A stretch of DNA of 64,000 nt, from positions 1 to 64,000 of the forward strand of contig CABZAV010000001.1 in NCBI GenBank assembly GCA_902523885.1, in the 5' to 3' direction. Of this stretch, positions 34,385 to 40,199 are shown piece by piece. Both the position numbers and the translations under genes were made by a program. The stretch comes from an uncultured SAR86 cluster bacterium. GTDB taxonomy: Bacteria > Pseudomonadota > Gammaproteobacteria > Magnimaribacterales > AG-339-G14. The notes beneath the pieces were generated by a model that searched no databases, was not told where the DNA came from, and saw only the letters and a program-made list of their open reading frames with translations. Position 1 is the first letter of the stretch. The number at the start of each line of letters is the position of its first letter.

Positions 34385-34447
34385 AAGAGGACTAAAGTTT
34401 TCGATATAGCAATCATAGGAGCGGGAGCAGAAGAATTATCTATTTAA
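34385..34447 (+). pseudogene. Fragment of a flavoprotein N-terminus
   Basis: After an AAGAGG motif the frame reads KVFDIAIIGAGAEELSI then TAA. VFDIAIIGAGA is the start of an FAD/NAD-binding Rossmann fold, as in many flavin oxidoreductases. No start codon remains and the frame ends after about 20 residues, right before the sugar transporter gene in the same frame. It looks like the leftover 5' end of a lost gene. A chance match is possible given its shortness. Confidence 0.35.
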
Positions 34448-34459
34448 ATAGGGGGAAAA

Positions 34460-35800
34460 ATAAATACTAATTTAGTAAGTAACAAGGTAAGAGTTGGTTA
34501 TGGAATCGGTGATTATGCAATTTGTCTCTATTGGAGTGGCGTAGGACTTTATTTGTTATATTTTTACACAGATGTAGTAGGAATTTCACCTTTACTGGCT
34601 GGTTGGATTTATGCTTTAGGAATAGGCTGGGATGCAATAACAGATCCATATATGGGTTTTATTGCTGAAAGGACCAGGACCAAAATGGGAAGTTATCGAC
34701 CATACATATTGTTTGGCTCTATTCCTTTGGCCTTATCCTTCATTTTACTTTTTTGGGTACCTCCCTTTGAAGGGACATTTTTATTTGTTTTTCTGATCAT
34801 AGCGAATATTTTTCATAGGACTTGTTTTACTATTGTGAGTGTTCCTTATAGCTCTCTGACTGCAAGAATCTCTGACGACAGTGAAGAAAGAACAAAACTA
34901 ACTACAGCTAGAATGTTGGGTGCCTCTTTTGGAACTCTAACTATTTCTGCTCTTGGATTTCCAATCGTTAATTGGTTTGGAAGGGGCGAAGAATCTTTAG
35001 GTTTTGTCTATTTAGGAACTTGTTCTGGGCTTGCTGCAGTTTTAATTTTAGCAATCACAGTAAAAACAGTTAAAGAAAGAAATTTTGATATAGAGATCTC
35101 AAAATTACCCAATTTCTCTGAAGTAAGTAAGTCAATTGTTAAGAATTATGCATTTTTGATTGTATTTGCTTCTACTCTTACTTTAATTACAACTTCTATT
35201 ATGTTTAATAAAAATTTAATTTATTACACTAAATATGCATTAGGTTTGCATGATTACCAAGGATTGATTTTAGGAGTGAGCAGTGCGTCTGCTTTTCTTG
35301 CCATACCCGTTTGGGCTTACTTCGCACTGAAAATAGGAAAAAGAAATTCCTGGTTGATTTCTATGATTCTATTGGTATTTAGTTTTTTGTTTTTTTATTT
35401 ATATCCAATTAAAAATTTATTAGAGCTTTTAATCGTTTTAGTAGTTTTAGGAATTGGCAATGGCGCCACTGGAGTATTATTTTGGTCTATGTTACCCGAT
35501 ACAATCGAATACGGAGAATGGAAGACAGGCGTAAGAACAGAGTCTTCTCTATATGGCTTTATGACCTTTGCACAAAAAGGTGGAATAGCTATCTCAGCAC
35601 TTATTTTAGGAATGCTTTTAACGAATATAGGATTTATTCCAAATACAGTTCAATCAGAAGAGACTTTGGAAAGTTTAAAAAGCCTGATGACTTTTATTCC
35701 CCTGGCAGGAGTAGTTTTGAGTTTGATTTTGGTATATTTCTATCCTATAGATTCTAAATTTCATAAGAAATTAATTAGAGAAATTAATGAAAGAAGTTAA
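34460..35800 (+). CDS. GPH/MelB-type sugar:cation symporter, non-standard start
   Basis: About 446 residues, twelve predicted helices. The open frame upstream of the first usable TTG (34553) reads NKVRVGYGIGDYAICLYWSG into YFYTDVVGISPLLAG, the conserved GPH N-terminus; starting at the TTG would cut helix 1. No ATG, GTG or TTG lies in frame before this, only ATA at 34460 four bases after GGGGG, as if ATG had mutated. Other family motifs: WDAITDPYMGFIAERTRTKM and FWSMLPDTIEYGEWKTGVRT. It would import a sugar or glycoside with H+ or Na+. It overlaps the fusion gene downstream by 14 bases. Confidence 0.82.
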   Translation: MNTNLVSNKVRVGYGIGDYAICLYWSGVGLYLLYFYTDVVGISPLLAGWIYALGIGWDAITDPYMGFIAERTRTKMGSYRPYILFGSIPLALSFILLFWVPPFEGTFLFVFLIIANIFHRTCFTIVSVPYSSLTARISDDSEERTKLTTARMLGASFGTLTISALGFPIVNWFGRGEESLGFVYLGTCSGLAAVLILAITVKTVKERNFDIEISKLPNFSEVSKSIVKNYAFLIVFASTLTLITTSIMFNKNLIYYTKYALGLHDYQGLILGVSSASAFLAIPVWAYFALKIGKRNSWLISMILLVFSFLFFYLYPIKNLLELLIVLVVLGIGNGATGVLFWSMLPDTIEYGEWKTGVRTESSLYGFMTFAQKGGIAISALILGMLLTNIGFIPNTVQSEETLESLKSLMTFIPLAGVVLSLILVYFYPIDSKFHKKLIREINERS

Positions 35801-37772
35801 ATGGGGAATAATTGCTGCAGGAAGTATTGCTAACGCTTTTGCGCATTCAATTAAATACTCAGAAAATGCAATGCTTTCTTGTGTGCTTGGTAGAAATGAA
35901 GAAAAAGTTAATTCCTTTGCTGAAAAACATAATTGTCAGCCATATTTAGATTTAGAATTATTTCTTGATTCCGACATCGAAGCGGTTTACATAGCCACCC
36001 CACATGATTCTCATTTTCATTATTCAATGGAAGTGATTAAAAGAAAATTACATGTTTTGTGCGAAAAACCTTTGTCTGTGAATTCAATAGAAGCAATGAT
36101 TTTAATGAATGAAGCAAAAAAAAATGATGTTTTCTTGATGGAGGCTTTCATGTATAGAACTCATCCTCAAACATTTGAAATCTTGAAGATTTGTAAGAAA
36201 TATTTAAAGGAAACAAATGTGAAAATTTCAAGCTCTTTTGGGTTTGATGCTCCAGTAGACAAAAGTCACAGATTAAGAAATCCTAACTTGGCTGGAGGAG
36301 CAATATTAGATGTTGGTTGTTACCCTTTGTCTATGGCTAGGCTAATCGCTGGAGCTATAAATGATGAGCAATATTTAGATCCTAAAAGCATCGAGGTAAA
36401 AGGATCTATAGATTCAACAGGAGTAGATAACAAGTCTAGCGCTAATTTGATATTTAACGATAATATTTCAGCTTACATTGAAACGTCGATAAATGAAGAG
36501 TTACAAAATAACCTAATTATTAAATCTGACAAAGTTGAAGTTGAAGTTTCTGAACCTTGGCATTGCGGACAATTTCAAGAGGGCAAGTATTCAATTAAGT
36601 TAAATCTCGAAGGCAAAAAAACCATTATTTCTAACAGAGACGAAGTAGGTCTTTTTACCAGGGAAATTAATGAGGCGTCTAAATGTATTTTGCAAGGAGA
36701 TTCTGAATCTTCATTAATGTCTCATAAAGATAGTTTTGGTAATATGCTTTGGCTAGAAAAGTGGTATTTAGAAACAGGGGTCAAATATCCTCAAAATATA
36801 GTTGAAAAGTCTCCAATATTTTCTTGTCGATATGAGCCAGTAGCTAAATTAGCTAAGTCTGAGATTGATGACGTTTCAAAGAAAGGCTCAAGATTAGTAT
36901 TTGGTTGTGATAATCAAACTTCTCAATTACATGCGTCAACAATGTTTGATCATTTTTATAACAATGGTGGAAACATTTTTGATACAGCTTATATTTACAA
37001 TGACGGAAAATCTGATGAATATTTAGGAGAGTGGATCAATACAAATGGGCTTTCAAAAGAGATAATAGTTCTTGGAAAAGGAGCTCATACGCCACATTGC
37101 GAACCTAAATTTATTAAACAACAATTAGAAGAGTCTTTAGAAAGATTGAAGCTTGAATCGTTAGATATATATTGTTTGCACAGAGATAATTTAGATATAC
37201 CAGTTGAGGAATTTATTGATGCCTTAAATGAAATTCATTCAGCAGGGCTCGTTTCTACAATTGGAGCTTCGAATTGGACTTTAGAAAGATTTGATAATGC
37301 TAACAACTACGCAAAGAAAAATGAAAAAATTGGTTTTAAAGTTTTGAGTAACAATTTCAGTTTAGCCAATATGAATAAACCTGTTTGGCCTGGATGTGTA
37401 AATTGTAGTGAACAATATCTAAATTATTTGTTTGAAAATGATATATATCTTTTTCCATGGTCTAGTCAGGCTAGGGGTTTTTTCTTGGAAAAAGATCTCT
37501 ATCCTAAGGCAGCTCATGTTGCAAATCCGTCTCTAGAAGAAGAGCAAAGGGTTTGGCATGATGAAATAAATTTATCAAGAAGGAAAAAATGTTTTCAGCT
37601 TTCTGAAGAGTTAGGATGCCTGCCAATAGAATTAGCACTTGCTTATGTTATAAACAAAAACCCTAATATTTTTCCTTTAGTTGGACCAAGATCTGTTTAT
37701 GAGTCAGAAAGTTGTATGAAAGCTTCTTTGATTACTCTTGATGACGAACAAATGAATTGGCTAACCTCATAA
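35787..37772 (+). CDS. Gfo/Idh/MocA oxidoreductase fused to aldo-keto reductase
   Basis: 661 residues, two enzymes in one chain. Residues 1 to about 340 form a Gfo/Idh/MocA protein: WGIIAAGSIANAFAHSIKYS (NAD(P) motif), catalytic-site EKP at 93-95 in HVLCEKPLSVNS, and AGGAILDVGCYPLSMARLIA. Residues about 365-661 form an aldo-keto reductase: Asp399 and Tyr404 in FDTAYIYNDG, Lys431 in LGKGAH, His465 in YCLHRDN complete the tetrad. Such a pair could carry out successive redox steps on a sugar. Context with the transporter and GH3 supports carbohydrate use; the substrate is unknown. Confidence 0.92.
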   Translation: MKEVKWGIIAAGSIANAFAHSIKYSENAMLSCVLGRNEEKVNSFAEKHNCQPYLDLELFLDSDIEAVYIATPHDSHFHYSMEVIKRKLHVLCEKPLSVNSIEAMILMNEAKKNDVFLMEAFMYRTHPQTFEILKICKKYLKETNVKISSSFGFDAPVDKSHRLRNPNLAGGAILDVGCYPLSMARLIAGAINDEQYLDPKSIEVKGSIDSTGVDNKSSANLIFNDNISAYIETSINEELQNNLIIKSDKVEVEVSEPWHCGQFQEGKYSIKLNLEGKKTIISNRDEVGLFTREINEASKCILQGDSESSLMSHKDSFGNMLWLEKWYLETGVKYPQNIVEKSPIFSCRYEPVAKLAKSEIDDVSKKGSRLVFGCDNQTSQLHASTMFDHFYNNGGNIFDTAYIYNDGKSDEYLGEWINTNGLSKEIIVLGKGAHTPHCEPKFIKQQLEESLERLKLESLDIYCLHRDNLDIPVEEFIDALNEIHSAGLVSTIGASNWTLERFDNANNYAKKNEKIGFKVLSNNFSLANMNKPVWPGCVNCSEQYLNYLFENDIYLFPWSSQARGFFLEKDLYPKAAHVANPSLEEEQRVWHDEINLSRRKKCFQLSEELGCLPIELALAYVINKNPNIFPLVGPRSVYESESCMKASLITLDDEQMNWLTS

Positions 37773-40199
37773 CAAAATATCTTTCTTTAGTTCTATTTGC
37801 TCAGAAGAAGAACCTATACTAATTGTGTAGGTTCCAGGTCTTACGATCCAATCTTTTTCTTGAATATCCCAGTAAGAAAAGCTTCTTTTATTTAAAGTTA
37901 GCTTTAATTCAATTTCACTATCTTGCTTTATGAAAACTTTCTTGAATGATTGCAGTGATTTTAAAGGCTCATCTTTTTCTGCATTAGAAAATGAAACATA
38001 GCACTGAGCAACTTCGCTACCGTCCATCATTCCCTCATTTTTTAATTTAAATTTACATTTAATGTTGTAATTATCATTTTTAATAAGCTCTAGATTTGAA
38101 AAAGAAAAATCTGTATAAGATAGTCCAAATCCAAAGGGGAAGAGGGGCTTAATGTCCTTCTTTTCATACCACCTGTGGCCGACTAAAAGCTTTTCTTCAT
38201 AATCCATTTGAGAGTTCTTTCCTGGATAGCAACCAAATGCGGGTGTATCTTCAATTTTTTTTGGAAAAGTTGTTGGAAGCTTCCCTGACGGATTCACTTT
38301 CCCAAATAATAGGTCAGCTAACGAGTTTCCATATTCTTGCCCACCAAACCATGACTGTAAAACTGCTTTGCTCTTATTCAACCATGGCATTGAGACAGGA
38401 GAGCCGGAATTTAATACAACAACAGTATTCTTATTTGCCTCTAAAATATTTTCTATTAACTGATCTTGATTTGCTGGAAGGCTGAGGTCAGCTCTGTCAT
38501 TTCCTTCAGTTTCCCAATCAGAATTAGTACCAACAATTAAAATGACAGTGTCAGCATTTTTGGCAACTTCAACAGCTTCCTCTAAAAGGTTCGTTTTTTC
38601 AGGAGGCATACAACCAAAATGAATGGCAGGAAATCTTCCTTCAAAGAAATATTCAACTTCAAATTTATAACTCTTATCTTTCTCAAGATTAATTGAGTTC
38701 CTTTTTGCAGCAGTAGCTAAAGAAAAGAAAGCTTCTCCGGGAAAGGTTTCATTCCAATTATCTATTAAGATATTTCCATCAATCTTTATTTTGCTGAGGC
38801 CAATTCCAAAAACTTCGAATTCGTGATCTCCAGATACATCAGGTGAGTAATTACAAGAAAACCTAACGATAACAGAGGGACGATCCTCTCTATTAATAAT
38901 ATCTTTTGCAAACCCTTCAAAAATCCAAAATTTATTTCCCTTTAAAACTTCTGAATTAATTAATTTATCGTCCTTGATTTCTTTATCAAAAAACTCAACC
39001 AAAAATCCTTCTTCAGGGTTTAAAAAGAGTTTTTCATCTAATTTAGGTAAAAATTTATTTGTCTTTGTTCCTTCTGCATATGAAATTGAAAAATTATCAG
39101 AAAATCTTTCTTTCAAAGCATCGTATGGATGTATTTGATAGTGAGGCTTTAAACTAGCACTTCCACCACCAATAATCTGACTATTTTTCGCATTCGGACC
39201 AATTACTGCTAATTTTTTTATTTTATTTTCATCAAACGGAAGAACATTTTCATTCTTTAATAAAACCATACCCTCACAAGCAACGTTTCTAAGAAGCTGG
39301 TTATGAGATTGTCTAATATTGCTTTTCTCAGGCTTATTTTCTGGCGAATTGAACCTTCCTGAAAATTCTCCTATTCTTAATATTCTCATTACTTTGTCAT
39401 TGATAATTTCTTCCTCAACCAATCCATCTGATATCGCACTTAATAATTTTTCTCCCCAAGTATTTCCAGGTCCAGGCATTTCAAGATCTAATCCCCCATT
39501 GGCATTTTCAATAGTTTCTAATGCAGCTCCCCAATCACTAACTACATATCCATCAAAACCCCATTCTTTTTTTAAAATATCAACCAAAAGTTCTTTATGC
39601 GAACTGCAATAAATATTATTTAACTTATTGTATGCAGACATTACTGATTTGGATTTTCCTTCTATAACTCCCATTTCAAAGGGTAGTAAATAAACTTCTC
39701 TTAATGTTCTTTCATCAACATTTGAGCTTACTGTATGCCTTTCGAATTCAGTATCATTGGCAATGAAGTGTTTTAAACAGGCTGAAACATTCTTAGACTG
39801 AACACCTTTCACATAAGCTGTAGCTAATTTGCCGACTAAAAAAGGATCTTCAGAGTAATTTTCGAAATGCCTACCACCAAGCGGATGCCTATGAAGATTA
39901 ATTGTTGGACCCAATAAAACATCAACATCTTTATCTTTAGCTTCGTCTCCTAAGGCTTCTCCAATCTCAGAAAATAGGTCTTCATTCCATGTAGAGCCCA
40001 TAAGGATTGGGCAAGGAAAGCAGGCAGATGATTTTCCGGAATTACCATCACCTCTAATGCCGTTAGGACCATCGGACATTTTAATGCTGGGAATATTTAG
40101 TCTTTCTATTTTATTTGTATACCAACTGTTAAAACCGCTCAGCAAACTAATCTTTTCTTCTAGGGTTAATTCGTTAACAATTTTGTCTATACCAATCAT
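37767..40199 (-). CDS. GH3 beta-glycosidase with inserted PA14 domain
   Basis: 810 residues without a signal peptide, so probably cytoplasmic. Order: N-terminal GH3 barrel with KMSDGPNGIRG, GRHFENYSEDPFLVGKLA, CLKHFIANDTEFERH, nucleophile Asp222 in GYVVSDWGAALE; then the C-terminal GH3 domain split by a PA14 insert (about 385-530, FSCNYSPDVSGDHEFEVFG); then WETEGNDRADLSLPANQDQL with the likely acid/base region, and a fibronectin-III-like tail. Most similar enzymes are beta-glucosidases; PA14 usually shapes the active site for oligosaccharides. Convergent with the fusion gene, sharing six bases. Confidence 0.93.
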   Translation of the reverse strand: MIGIDKIVNELTLEEKISLLSGFNSWYTNKIERLNIPSIKMSDGPNGIRGDGNSGKSSACFPCPILMGSTWNEDLFSEIGEALGDEAKDKDVDVLLGPTINLHRHPLGGRHFENYSEDPFLVGKLATAYVKGVQSKNVSACLKHFIANDTEFERHTVSSNVDERTLREVYLLPFEMGVIEGKSKSVMSAYNKLNNIYCSSHKELLVDILKKEWGFDGYVVSDWGAALETIENANGGLDLEMPGPGNTWGEKLLSAISDGLVEEEIINDKVMRILRIGEFSGRFNSPENKPEKSNIRQSHNQLLRNVACEGMVLLKNENVLPFDENKIKKLAVIGPNAKNSQIIGGGSASLKPHYQIHPYDALKERFSDNFSISYAEGTKTNKFLPKLDEKLFLNPEEGFLVEFFDKEIKDDKLINSEVLKGNKFWIFEGFAKDIINREDRPSVIVRFSCNYSPDVSGDHEFEVFGIGLSKIKIDGNILIDNWNETFPGEAFFSLATAAKRNSINLEKDKSYKFEVEYFFEGRFPAIHFGCMPPEKTNLLEEAVEVAKNADTVILIVGTNSDWETEGNDRADLSLPANQDQLIENILEANKNTVVVLNSGSPVSMPWLNKSKAVLQSWFGGQEYGNSLADLLFGKVNPSGKLPTTFPKKIEDTPAFGCYPGKNSQMDYEEKLLVGHRWYEKKDIKPLFPFGFGLSYTDFSFSNLELIKNDNYNIKCKFKLKNEGMMDGSEVAQCYVSFSNAEKDEPLKSLQSFKKVFIKQDSEIELKLTLNKRSFSYWDIQEKDWIVRPGTYTISIGSSSEQIELKKDILL

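Follow-up and report, generated by a model that had tools for sequence, protein, structure and literature searches.

A Gfo/Idh/MocA–aldo-keto reductase fusion associated with sugar uptake in SAR86 bacteria and rhizobial plasmids

SAR86 is an abundant, uncultivated group of ocean bacteria with very small genomes. The stretch of DNA analysed here (the window) comprises 64,000 nucleotides from an uncultured SAR86 cluster bacterium (contig CABZAV010000001.1 of assembly GCA_902523885.1) and encodes a 661-residue protein in which a Gfo/Idh/MocA oxidoreductase is joined to an aldo-keto reductase (AKR). This fusion architecture is widespread, each of its parts belongs to a known family, and it has no assigned function in the sources searched. 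The fusion is a core trait of SAR86 and is also encoded beside sugar transporters on rhizobial plasmids. To judge from the sequences compared, it is quite possibly a redox-neutral, one-chain converter of an unusual sugar within a catabolic module, acting as an isomerase or epimerase through a keto-sugar.

Distribution, active sites and fold of the fusion

An earlier note on this DNA, made from the sequence alone, had described a single fused gene, as opposed to two separate ones, and this description stands: the fusion is encoded full length, in one stop-free frame, in 40 of the 61 genomes of the window's order (its own genome included), at 46–100% identity. Fragments at contig ends in two more genomes bring the number with the fusion to 42. 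Chance, a frameshift or an assembly artefact was rejected as an explanation, given these 40 full-length copies and the retention of all seven catalytic residues in the 65 fusions aligned below. Because 40 of the 61 genomes keep it full length, the fusion probably marks a carbon source on which SAR86 depends.

A scan of the named collection confirmed 578 related places, the best 80 of which were taken for loci. These sort as 44 SAR86-type loci and 36 others, the latter consisting of 34 distant fusions and two loci labelled OCS116 (L081) and Rhodobiaceae (L085). The window's near relatives in this collection are SAR86 cluster bacteria. The same best 80 of 578 include distant fusions, full length and at 36–41% identity, from at least six other phyla, their hosts including other Gammaproteobacteria, Roseateles, Paucibacter, Chloroflexota, Planctomycetota, Verrucomicrobiota, Spirochaetota, Abditibacteriota and Candidatus Omnitrophota. 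On plasmids, the fusion was present in 190 records at E <= 1e-100, all of them rhizobial; in the rhizobial operons described below, it is 35–39% identical to that of the window over its full length. Evenly drawn genome samples, which are not counts of all species, contained a full-length fusion in 12 of 398 genomes of the phylum and a fusion in 2 of 369 of the class, so that beyond SAR86 and the rhizobia its distribution is patchy. The earlier note had envisaged that the fusion might turn out to be both common and already assigned. Common it is, on the scan and plasmid counts above, but assigned it is not: the records name it only as “aldo/keto reductase”, “Gfo/Idh/MocA family oxidoreductase” or “oxidoreductase”. 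No report assigning a function to a Gfo/Idh–AKR fusion turned up in the literature searched. The fusion is absent from the passages seen of a paper on SAR86 polysaccharide genes (PMC8371827).

In a tree of the Gfo/Idh half, fused rows (54) and unfused rows (13; one of the 14, L166, was left out) are split on one branch with a support of 60, some branches being long; this is compatible with a single origin of the fusion. None of the 14 unfused Gfo/Idh loci fetched contained an adjacent, unfused Gfo/Idh and AKR pair that might represent an intermediate. The fusions of L081 and L085 nest in the SAR86 clade of this tree, a placement attributable to gene transfer or to mislabelled bins.

The locus in the window consists of the following features:

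34460..35800, + strand: glycoside-pentoside-hexuronide:cation (GPH) symporter (TIGR00792, PF13347), its probable ATA start lying opposite the ATG of relatives
35787..37772, + strand: Gfo/Idh/MocA–AKR fusion, 661 residues (Pfam domains, relatives, alignment and model)
35787..36806, + strand: Gfo/Idh/MocA half of the fusion, residues 1–340 (PF01408/PF22725; K94 of EKP, D175, Y179, R36)
36807..36881, + strand: linker between the halves, residues 341–365, the least conserved part
36882..37769, + strand: AKR half of the fusion, residues 366–661 (PF00248; D399, Y404, K431, H465)
37767..40199, - strand: GH3 protein with PA14 and Fn3-like domains, 810 residues (PF00933, PF01915, PF07691, PF14310)

In the fusion protein, PF01408 and PF22725 together cover residues 5–239, above their Pfam cut-offs (72.6 bits against 24, and 32.7 against 27), and PF00248 covers residues 375–659 (160.9 bits against a cut-off of 24). 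An alignment of 65 fusions (56 of the 80 named-collection loci, eight plasmid loci and the window), drawn from at least seven phyla, showed K94, D175, Y179, D399, Y404, K431 and H465 to be invariant. K94 is the lysine of the EKP motif of the Gfo/Idh half, and this lysine and the aspartate are present in all 65 sequences, as is the Asp-Tyr-Lys-His tetrad of the AKR half (D399, Y404, K431 and H465); the observation, made earlier on the window, that both halves keep their key residues thus extends to every fusion aligned. The AKR half also contains the invariant motifs H-R-D-N, S-N-W and W-S-S. The mean majority fraction is 0.63 for the AKR half, 0.55 for the Gfo/Idh half and 0.38 for the linker. 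Because both catalytic sets are invariant, both halves look catalytically active, and neither appears to be decorative. R36, at the end of strand 2 in the Gfo/Idh half, is kept in 61 of the 65 sequences; we take this position, by analogy within the Gfo/Idh fold, to be of the NADP type, and its retention means that the two halves could draw on one NADP(H) pool.

AlphaFold, run on a 49-row alignment, gave a confident two-domain model (mean pLDDT 94.4, pTM 0.92). The best solved fold for residues 3–337 is that of dimeric dihydrodiol dehydrogenase (2o48; Z 42.5, rmsd 1.7, 315 residues aligned); other good matches include KijD10 (Z 39.0), aldose-aldose oxidoreductase (5a02; Z 38.0) and glucose-fructose oxidoreductase (GFOR; 1rye/1h6d, Z 36.4). 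These solved relatives share the fold, the EKP lysine, the Asp and the Tyr, but are only 15–25% identical to the fusion. Residues 353–661 match the deoxynivalenol (DON)-related AKRs 7utf and 8hwn (Z 34.0, rmsd 2.0–2.1, 279–282 residues aligned), and the best PDB sequence match of the AKR half is IolS. Known AKRs (the DON 3-epimerase AKR DepB, IolS and AKRtyl) have the same barrel and the same Asp-Tyr-Lys-His set but are about 22% identical to the AKR half, the H-R-D-N, S-N-W and W-S-S-Q motifs of which define a separate subfamily common to unfused proteins of Listeria and Enterococcus. No chain spanning both halves was present among the matches listed from the structural libraries. For the Gfo/Idh half, 19 of 50 structural rows have an alignment that reaches residues 573–581, a lower-confidence loop of the AKR half, which hints that this loop packs on the Gfo/Idh half where the C-terminal tail of free-standing members sits.

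Named specificities were tried for the Gfo/Idh half and for the GH3 protein. The Gfo/Idh half scored 52.7 against an equivalog cut-off of 650 for levoglucosan dehydrogenase, 67.3 against 350 for D-xylose 1-dehydrogenase and 64.2 against 355 for IolG. The best NCBIfam model of the GH3 protein is a beta-glucosidase, below its cut-off, and none of the named GH3 specificities (beta-glucosidase Celf_0468, arabinopyranosidase, xylosidase) reached its equivalog cut-off, the best score being 595.1 bits against 1300. Filing either protein under a named specificity was rejected, as the best models score well under their cut-offs.

Genes around the fusion

The symporter, the fusion and the GH3 protein with its PA14 domain do stand together in the window, as had been noted. 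The symporter scores 337.8 bits with TIGR00792, against a curated cut-off of 231.35, and matches PF13347 at E 4e-97. The end of its frame overlaps the start of the fusion by 14 bases (35787–35800), which suggests that the two are translationally coupled. The fusion and the GH3 gene, on opposite strands, are convergent and overlap by six bases. Both GH3 domains and the PA14 domain score above their cut-offs; the N-terminus of the GH3 protein, MIGIDKIVNELTLEEK, lacks a signal peptide by eye, and D222 in the VVSDWG motif is presumably the nucleophile. GC content is 0.31–0.36 throughout 30–45 kb of the window, the locus being the same as its surroundings, and the locus keeps its his-gene neighbours across three genera of family f1. 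The word “island” in the earlier note does not hold if acquired DNA was meant, and horizontal acquisition by SAR86 was rejected on this even GC content and synteny.

At SAR86-type loci with enough sequence on the side concerned, a GPH gene lies directly upstream on the same strand in 39 of 43, a convergent GH3 gene is next downstream in 31 of 43, and a GH3 gene lies within 6.5 kb in 37 of 43. (Open reading frames at the fetched SAR86 and distant loci were called as longest frames, not as gene predictions.) Across the 61 genomes of the order, the fusion is present in 42 (fragments included), the GH3 gene in 40 and both in 39; all 35 genomes with the GPH gene also have the fusion. Fisher tests, in which the kinship of the 61 genomes is ignored, gave p values of about 2e-11 for fusion and GH3 and 2e-10 for fusion and GPH. 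The association with GH3 does not rest on adjacency, because 11 genomes of genus g3 keep both genes with the GH3 gene elsewhere in the genome, unlinked to the fusion.

Three loci of SAR86 family f2 (L037, L038 and L041) have a TonB-dependent-receptor-like gene within about 10 kb of the fusion, which might serve to bring the same substrate across the outer membrane. In two of the three, a run of small genes and DPDLQGTW-type proteins that match no Pfam family lies between receptor and fusion.

On the plasmids of Rhizobium, Sinorhizobium, Phyllobacterium and Neorhizobium, the operon begins with a regulator of the AraC-like (helix-turn-helix) or ROK type and continues with a CUT1-type sugar ABC transporter; the fusion, annotated “aldo/keto reductase”, comes last. 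ABC genes adjoin it in nine of the ten named rhizobial plasmid loci examined. These operons thus have an ABC importer in place of the GPH symporter of SAR86, and a GH42 protein or no glycosidase in place of GH3. Most of those examined have no enzyme besides the fusion; in Rhizobium tumorigenes, a GH42 beta-galactosidase gene lies between transporter and fusion. ABC genes also adjoin the fusion in eight of eight genomes from one family (in changed order at L149), and a genome of another family (L144) has no ABC match near it. A TIM-barrel (PF01261) gene lies next to the fusion or one gene after it in Phyllobacterium and in G756, and Paucibacter has a similar frame. After the fusion, the Paucibacter-type cluster continues with a Gfo/Idh gene, a TIM barrel, a CUT1 ABC transporter and a GH63-like MGH1 hydrolase, so that the glycosidase differs by lineage: GH3 in SAR86, GH42 in R. 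tumorigenes and GH63-like MGH1 in the Paucibacter type. Family matches run on L143 and, for one gene, on L107 show that this Roseateles/Paucibacter-type cluster (L143, L107, L111) also includes GcvPA-, GcvPB- and NAD-kinase-like genes and an SDR.

No relative of the window's GPH or GH3 protein was present at the 36 non-SAR86 loci, within the stretch fetched. In a tally of Pfam and NCBIfam matches for 127 neighbour proteins of 36 loci, the only shared partners were a few SRAP, PhyH, Gfo/Idh and LpxA proteins, and the unrelated neighbours of distant fusions include SRAP, PhyH, LpxA and TatC.

Relatives of the AKR half also occur unfused. A Listeria AKR with the same motifs and no Gfo/Idh half is 33% identical to the AKR half, and an Enterococcus faecium AKR, likewise without a Gfo/Idh half, is 53% identical to the Listeria protein. 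The Listeria gene sits between phosphotransferase system (PTS) genes, a glucosamine-6-phosphate-deaminase gene and a gene for a sugar phosphate isomerase/epimerase; that of Enterococcus precedes an isomerase/epimerase gene and a sugar ABC transporter, with PTS and alpha-mannosidase genes further on. Judged by these neighbours, the AKR subfamily appears to track sugar uptake, since its members recur beside GPH, ABC and PTS importers. Two records filed as Listeria phage contigs (L186 and L187; OR848304.1 and OR847069.1) share their genes with a record of Listeria monocytogenes that matches at 99.7% identity over the AKR, and hemG-like and PTS genes lie nearby; they are probably host DNA.

The link to glycoside use proposed earlier therefore divides: its sugar-uptake part is upheld for GPH and CUT1 ABC systems, and for PTS or ABC systems in the case of the unfused sister AKRs, and its GH3 part is upheld in SAR86 but not at the 36 loci elsewhere. 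The search for the architecture and its neighbours that the earlier note had suggested showed fusions to be common, with loci tied to sugar uptake in SAR86 and the rhizobia.

Possible functions of the fusion

The chemistry, cofactor cycle, order of steps and substrate that we infer for a sugar converter are as follows. The GPH symporter would import a glycoside or a sugar, and the cytosolic GH3 protein would free the sugar from the glycoside where needed. The Gfo/Idh half would then oxidise one ring hydroxyl with NADP+, yielding a keto-sugar, and the AKR half would reduce the ketone with the same NADPH, with the other stereochemistry or at a rearranged carbon, to give a common hexose. Glucokinase would pass this hexose to central metabolism; the glucokinase family PF02685 is present in 32 of 37 SAR86-order genomes. 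As most rhizobial operons consist of a regulator, a transporter and no enzyme other than the fusion, the fusion alone may finish the conversion of an imported sugar. For the same reason, epimerisation via a keto intermediate, one of the examples in the earlier note, is retained as the best-fitting reading. In its most specific form, the proposal is that one chain epimerises unphosphorylated sugars or their glycosides and recycles its own cofactor, as an enzyme core to much of SAR86 and present in rhizobial plasmids and at least six further phyla; this is conceivable if rather doubtful. With such an epimerase, a single transporter and a single enzyme would suffice for a bacterium to start using a further sugar, and redox-neutral conversion would provide a one-protein route for sugar epimerisation, useful for making rare sugars. 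As Sinorhizobium and Rhizobium, both amenable to cultivation and mutation, have the same enzyme in regulated sugar operons, the question is testable, and a sugar supporting growth through a rhizobial operon may lead to the class of substrate used by SAR86.

Two known systems resemble this scheme. In the levoglucosan pathway (LgdA-LgdB1-LgdB2-LgdC), LgdA oxidises C3 of levoglucosan and LgdC reduces 3-keto-glucose, with a proposed regeneration of the cofactor (PMC7676230). A sugar carbon is likewise oxidised, acted upon and re-reduced, but by four separate proteins, whereas the SAR86 locus has one protein, a reductase of the AKR type and no lyase. In the epimerisation of DON by DepA and DepB, oxidation to a ring ketone is likewise followed by reduction to the epimer, DepB reducing 3-keto-DON to the 3-epimer with NADPH (PMC6056672). 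DepB is an AKR according to the title of its solved structure; DepA and DepB differ from the fusion in being separate proteins, and their substrate is a mycotoxin and not a sugar. To our knowledge, DepA is not a Gfo/Idh protein.

Several observations weigh against a sugar converter. R36 is missing in two SAR86 members. Against the link with GH3, three genomes with the fusion lack the GH3 gene (completeness 60–78%) and one has the GH3 gene without the fusion; no GPH match was present in seven of the 42 SAR86 genomes with the fusion. The S. medicae fusion is accompanied by a regulator only, without ABC genes, and many fusions outside SAR86 and the rhizobia have no sugar genes beside them. The unfused sister AKRs are partnered by a “sugar phosphate isomerase/epimerase” and not by a Gfo/Idh gene, so the partner of this AKR is not always a Gfo/Idh protein. 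A tyrosine in place of histidine at position 179 is, we believe, also a feature of the C1-acting glucose-fructose and aldose-aldose oxidoreductases, which favours a dismutase.

In such an aldose dismutase, the Gfo/Idh half would oxidise C1 of an aldose to a lactone and the AKR half would spend the NADPH on making a polyol from a second aldehyde or ketose, much as the glucose-fructose and aldose-aldose oxidoreductases do both in one domain. The Lys/Asp/Tyr set without a histidine fits this model, as do the folds of 2o48 (Z 42.5), 5a02 (Z 38.0) and GFOR (1rye/1h6d, Z 36.4), and the best NCBIfam model, D-xylose 1-dehydrogenase, far under its cut-off. We nevertheless consider it unlikely: single-domain enzymes already suffice, making the second domain superfluous, the 3-ketoreductase KijD10 fits the fold as well (Z 39.0), and the annotated loci show no lactonase or gluconate gene beside the fusion, except that S. 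medicae has one of the SMP-30/gluconolactonase family at a distance of 6 kb.

A split route through a 3-keto-glycoside seems similarly improbable. The Gfo/Idh half would oxidise C3 of an intact imported glycoside, a glycosidase or TIM-barrel lyase would cleave the product, and the AKR half would form glucose or galactose by reducing the freed keto-sugar. Two points count against this route: hydrolysis by GH3 enzymes normally involves no keto group, and a lyase gene of this kind is missing next to the fusion in SAR86 and in most of the rhizobial operons examined. In its favour are the PF01261 genes near the fusion in Phyllobacterium and G756, with the similar frame in Paucibacter, the sugar phosphate isomerase/epimerase gene adjoining the unfused AKRs, and the use of the same logic, with separate enzymes, for levoglucosan (PMC7676230).

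The two halves might also be unrelated activities that share no intermediate and were fused so as to be expressed together; a sugar dehydrogenase and a general carbonyl-detoxifying AKR would be one such pair. Broad carbonyl-reductase activity is common among AKRs, and many fusions do lie among unrelated genes. This explanation is nonetheless quite unlikely given the invariance of the seven catalytic residues, the position of the fused rows on one side of a Gfo/Idh tree branch (of which the support is only 60) and the recurrence of AKR relatives beside sugar importers of three kinds. Finally, an inositol-epimerising enzyme feeding an inositol pathway, suggested by IolG among the weak Gfo/Idh profile matches and by IolS as best PDB match of the AKR half, is very improbable: PF04962 (KduI, taken as covering IolB) had no match in 37 SAR86-order genomes, with a control positive in six of 14 genomes, so that SAR86 shows no evident sign of the known inositol route, which is disfavoured there.

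Start codon of the symporter gene and upstream remnant

None of the start codons ATG, GTG and TTG stands at the natural start of the window's GPH frame. Positions 34460–34462 read ATA and align with the ATG of relatives L028 and L049, and translation probably starts at this ATA. The aligned codon is also ATA in L026/L042 (the same genome, fetched twice), ATT in L022, L004, L023 and L027, and ATG in L024. The ATA of the window and the ATA and ATT codons of its relatives are each preceded by a G-rich, Shine-Dalgarno-like stretch (34445–34465 in the window), in what looks like a conserved AUU/AUA start in the window's genus. The gene for IF3 apparently begins with ATA in one f2 genome (L183, G040) and with ATG in five relatives of family f1 (L173, L175, L179–L181).

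Upstream of the symporter gene, at about 34397–34447 on the + strand, lies a short remnant, VFDIAIIGAGAEELSI*, resembling, by eye, the N-terminus of a DAO-family FAD-dependent oxidoreductase. A full gene of this family, which we take to be LhgO-like, is found upstream of the GPH gene in six relatives, and the window seems to have lost it.

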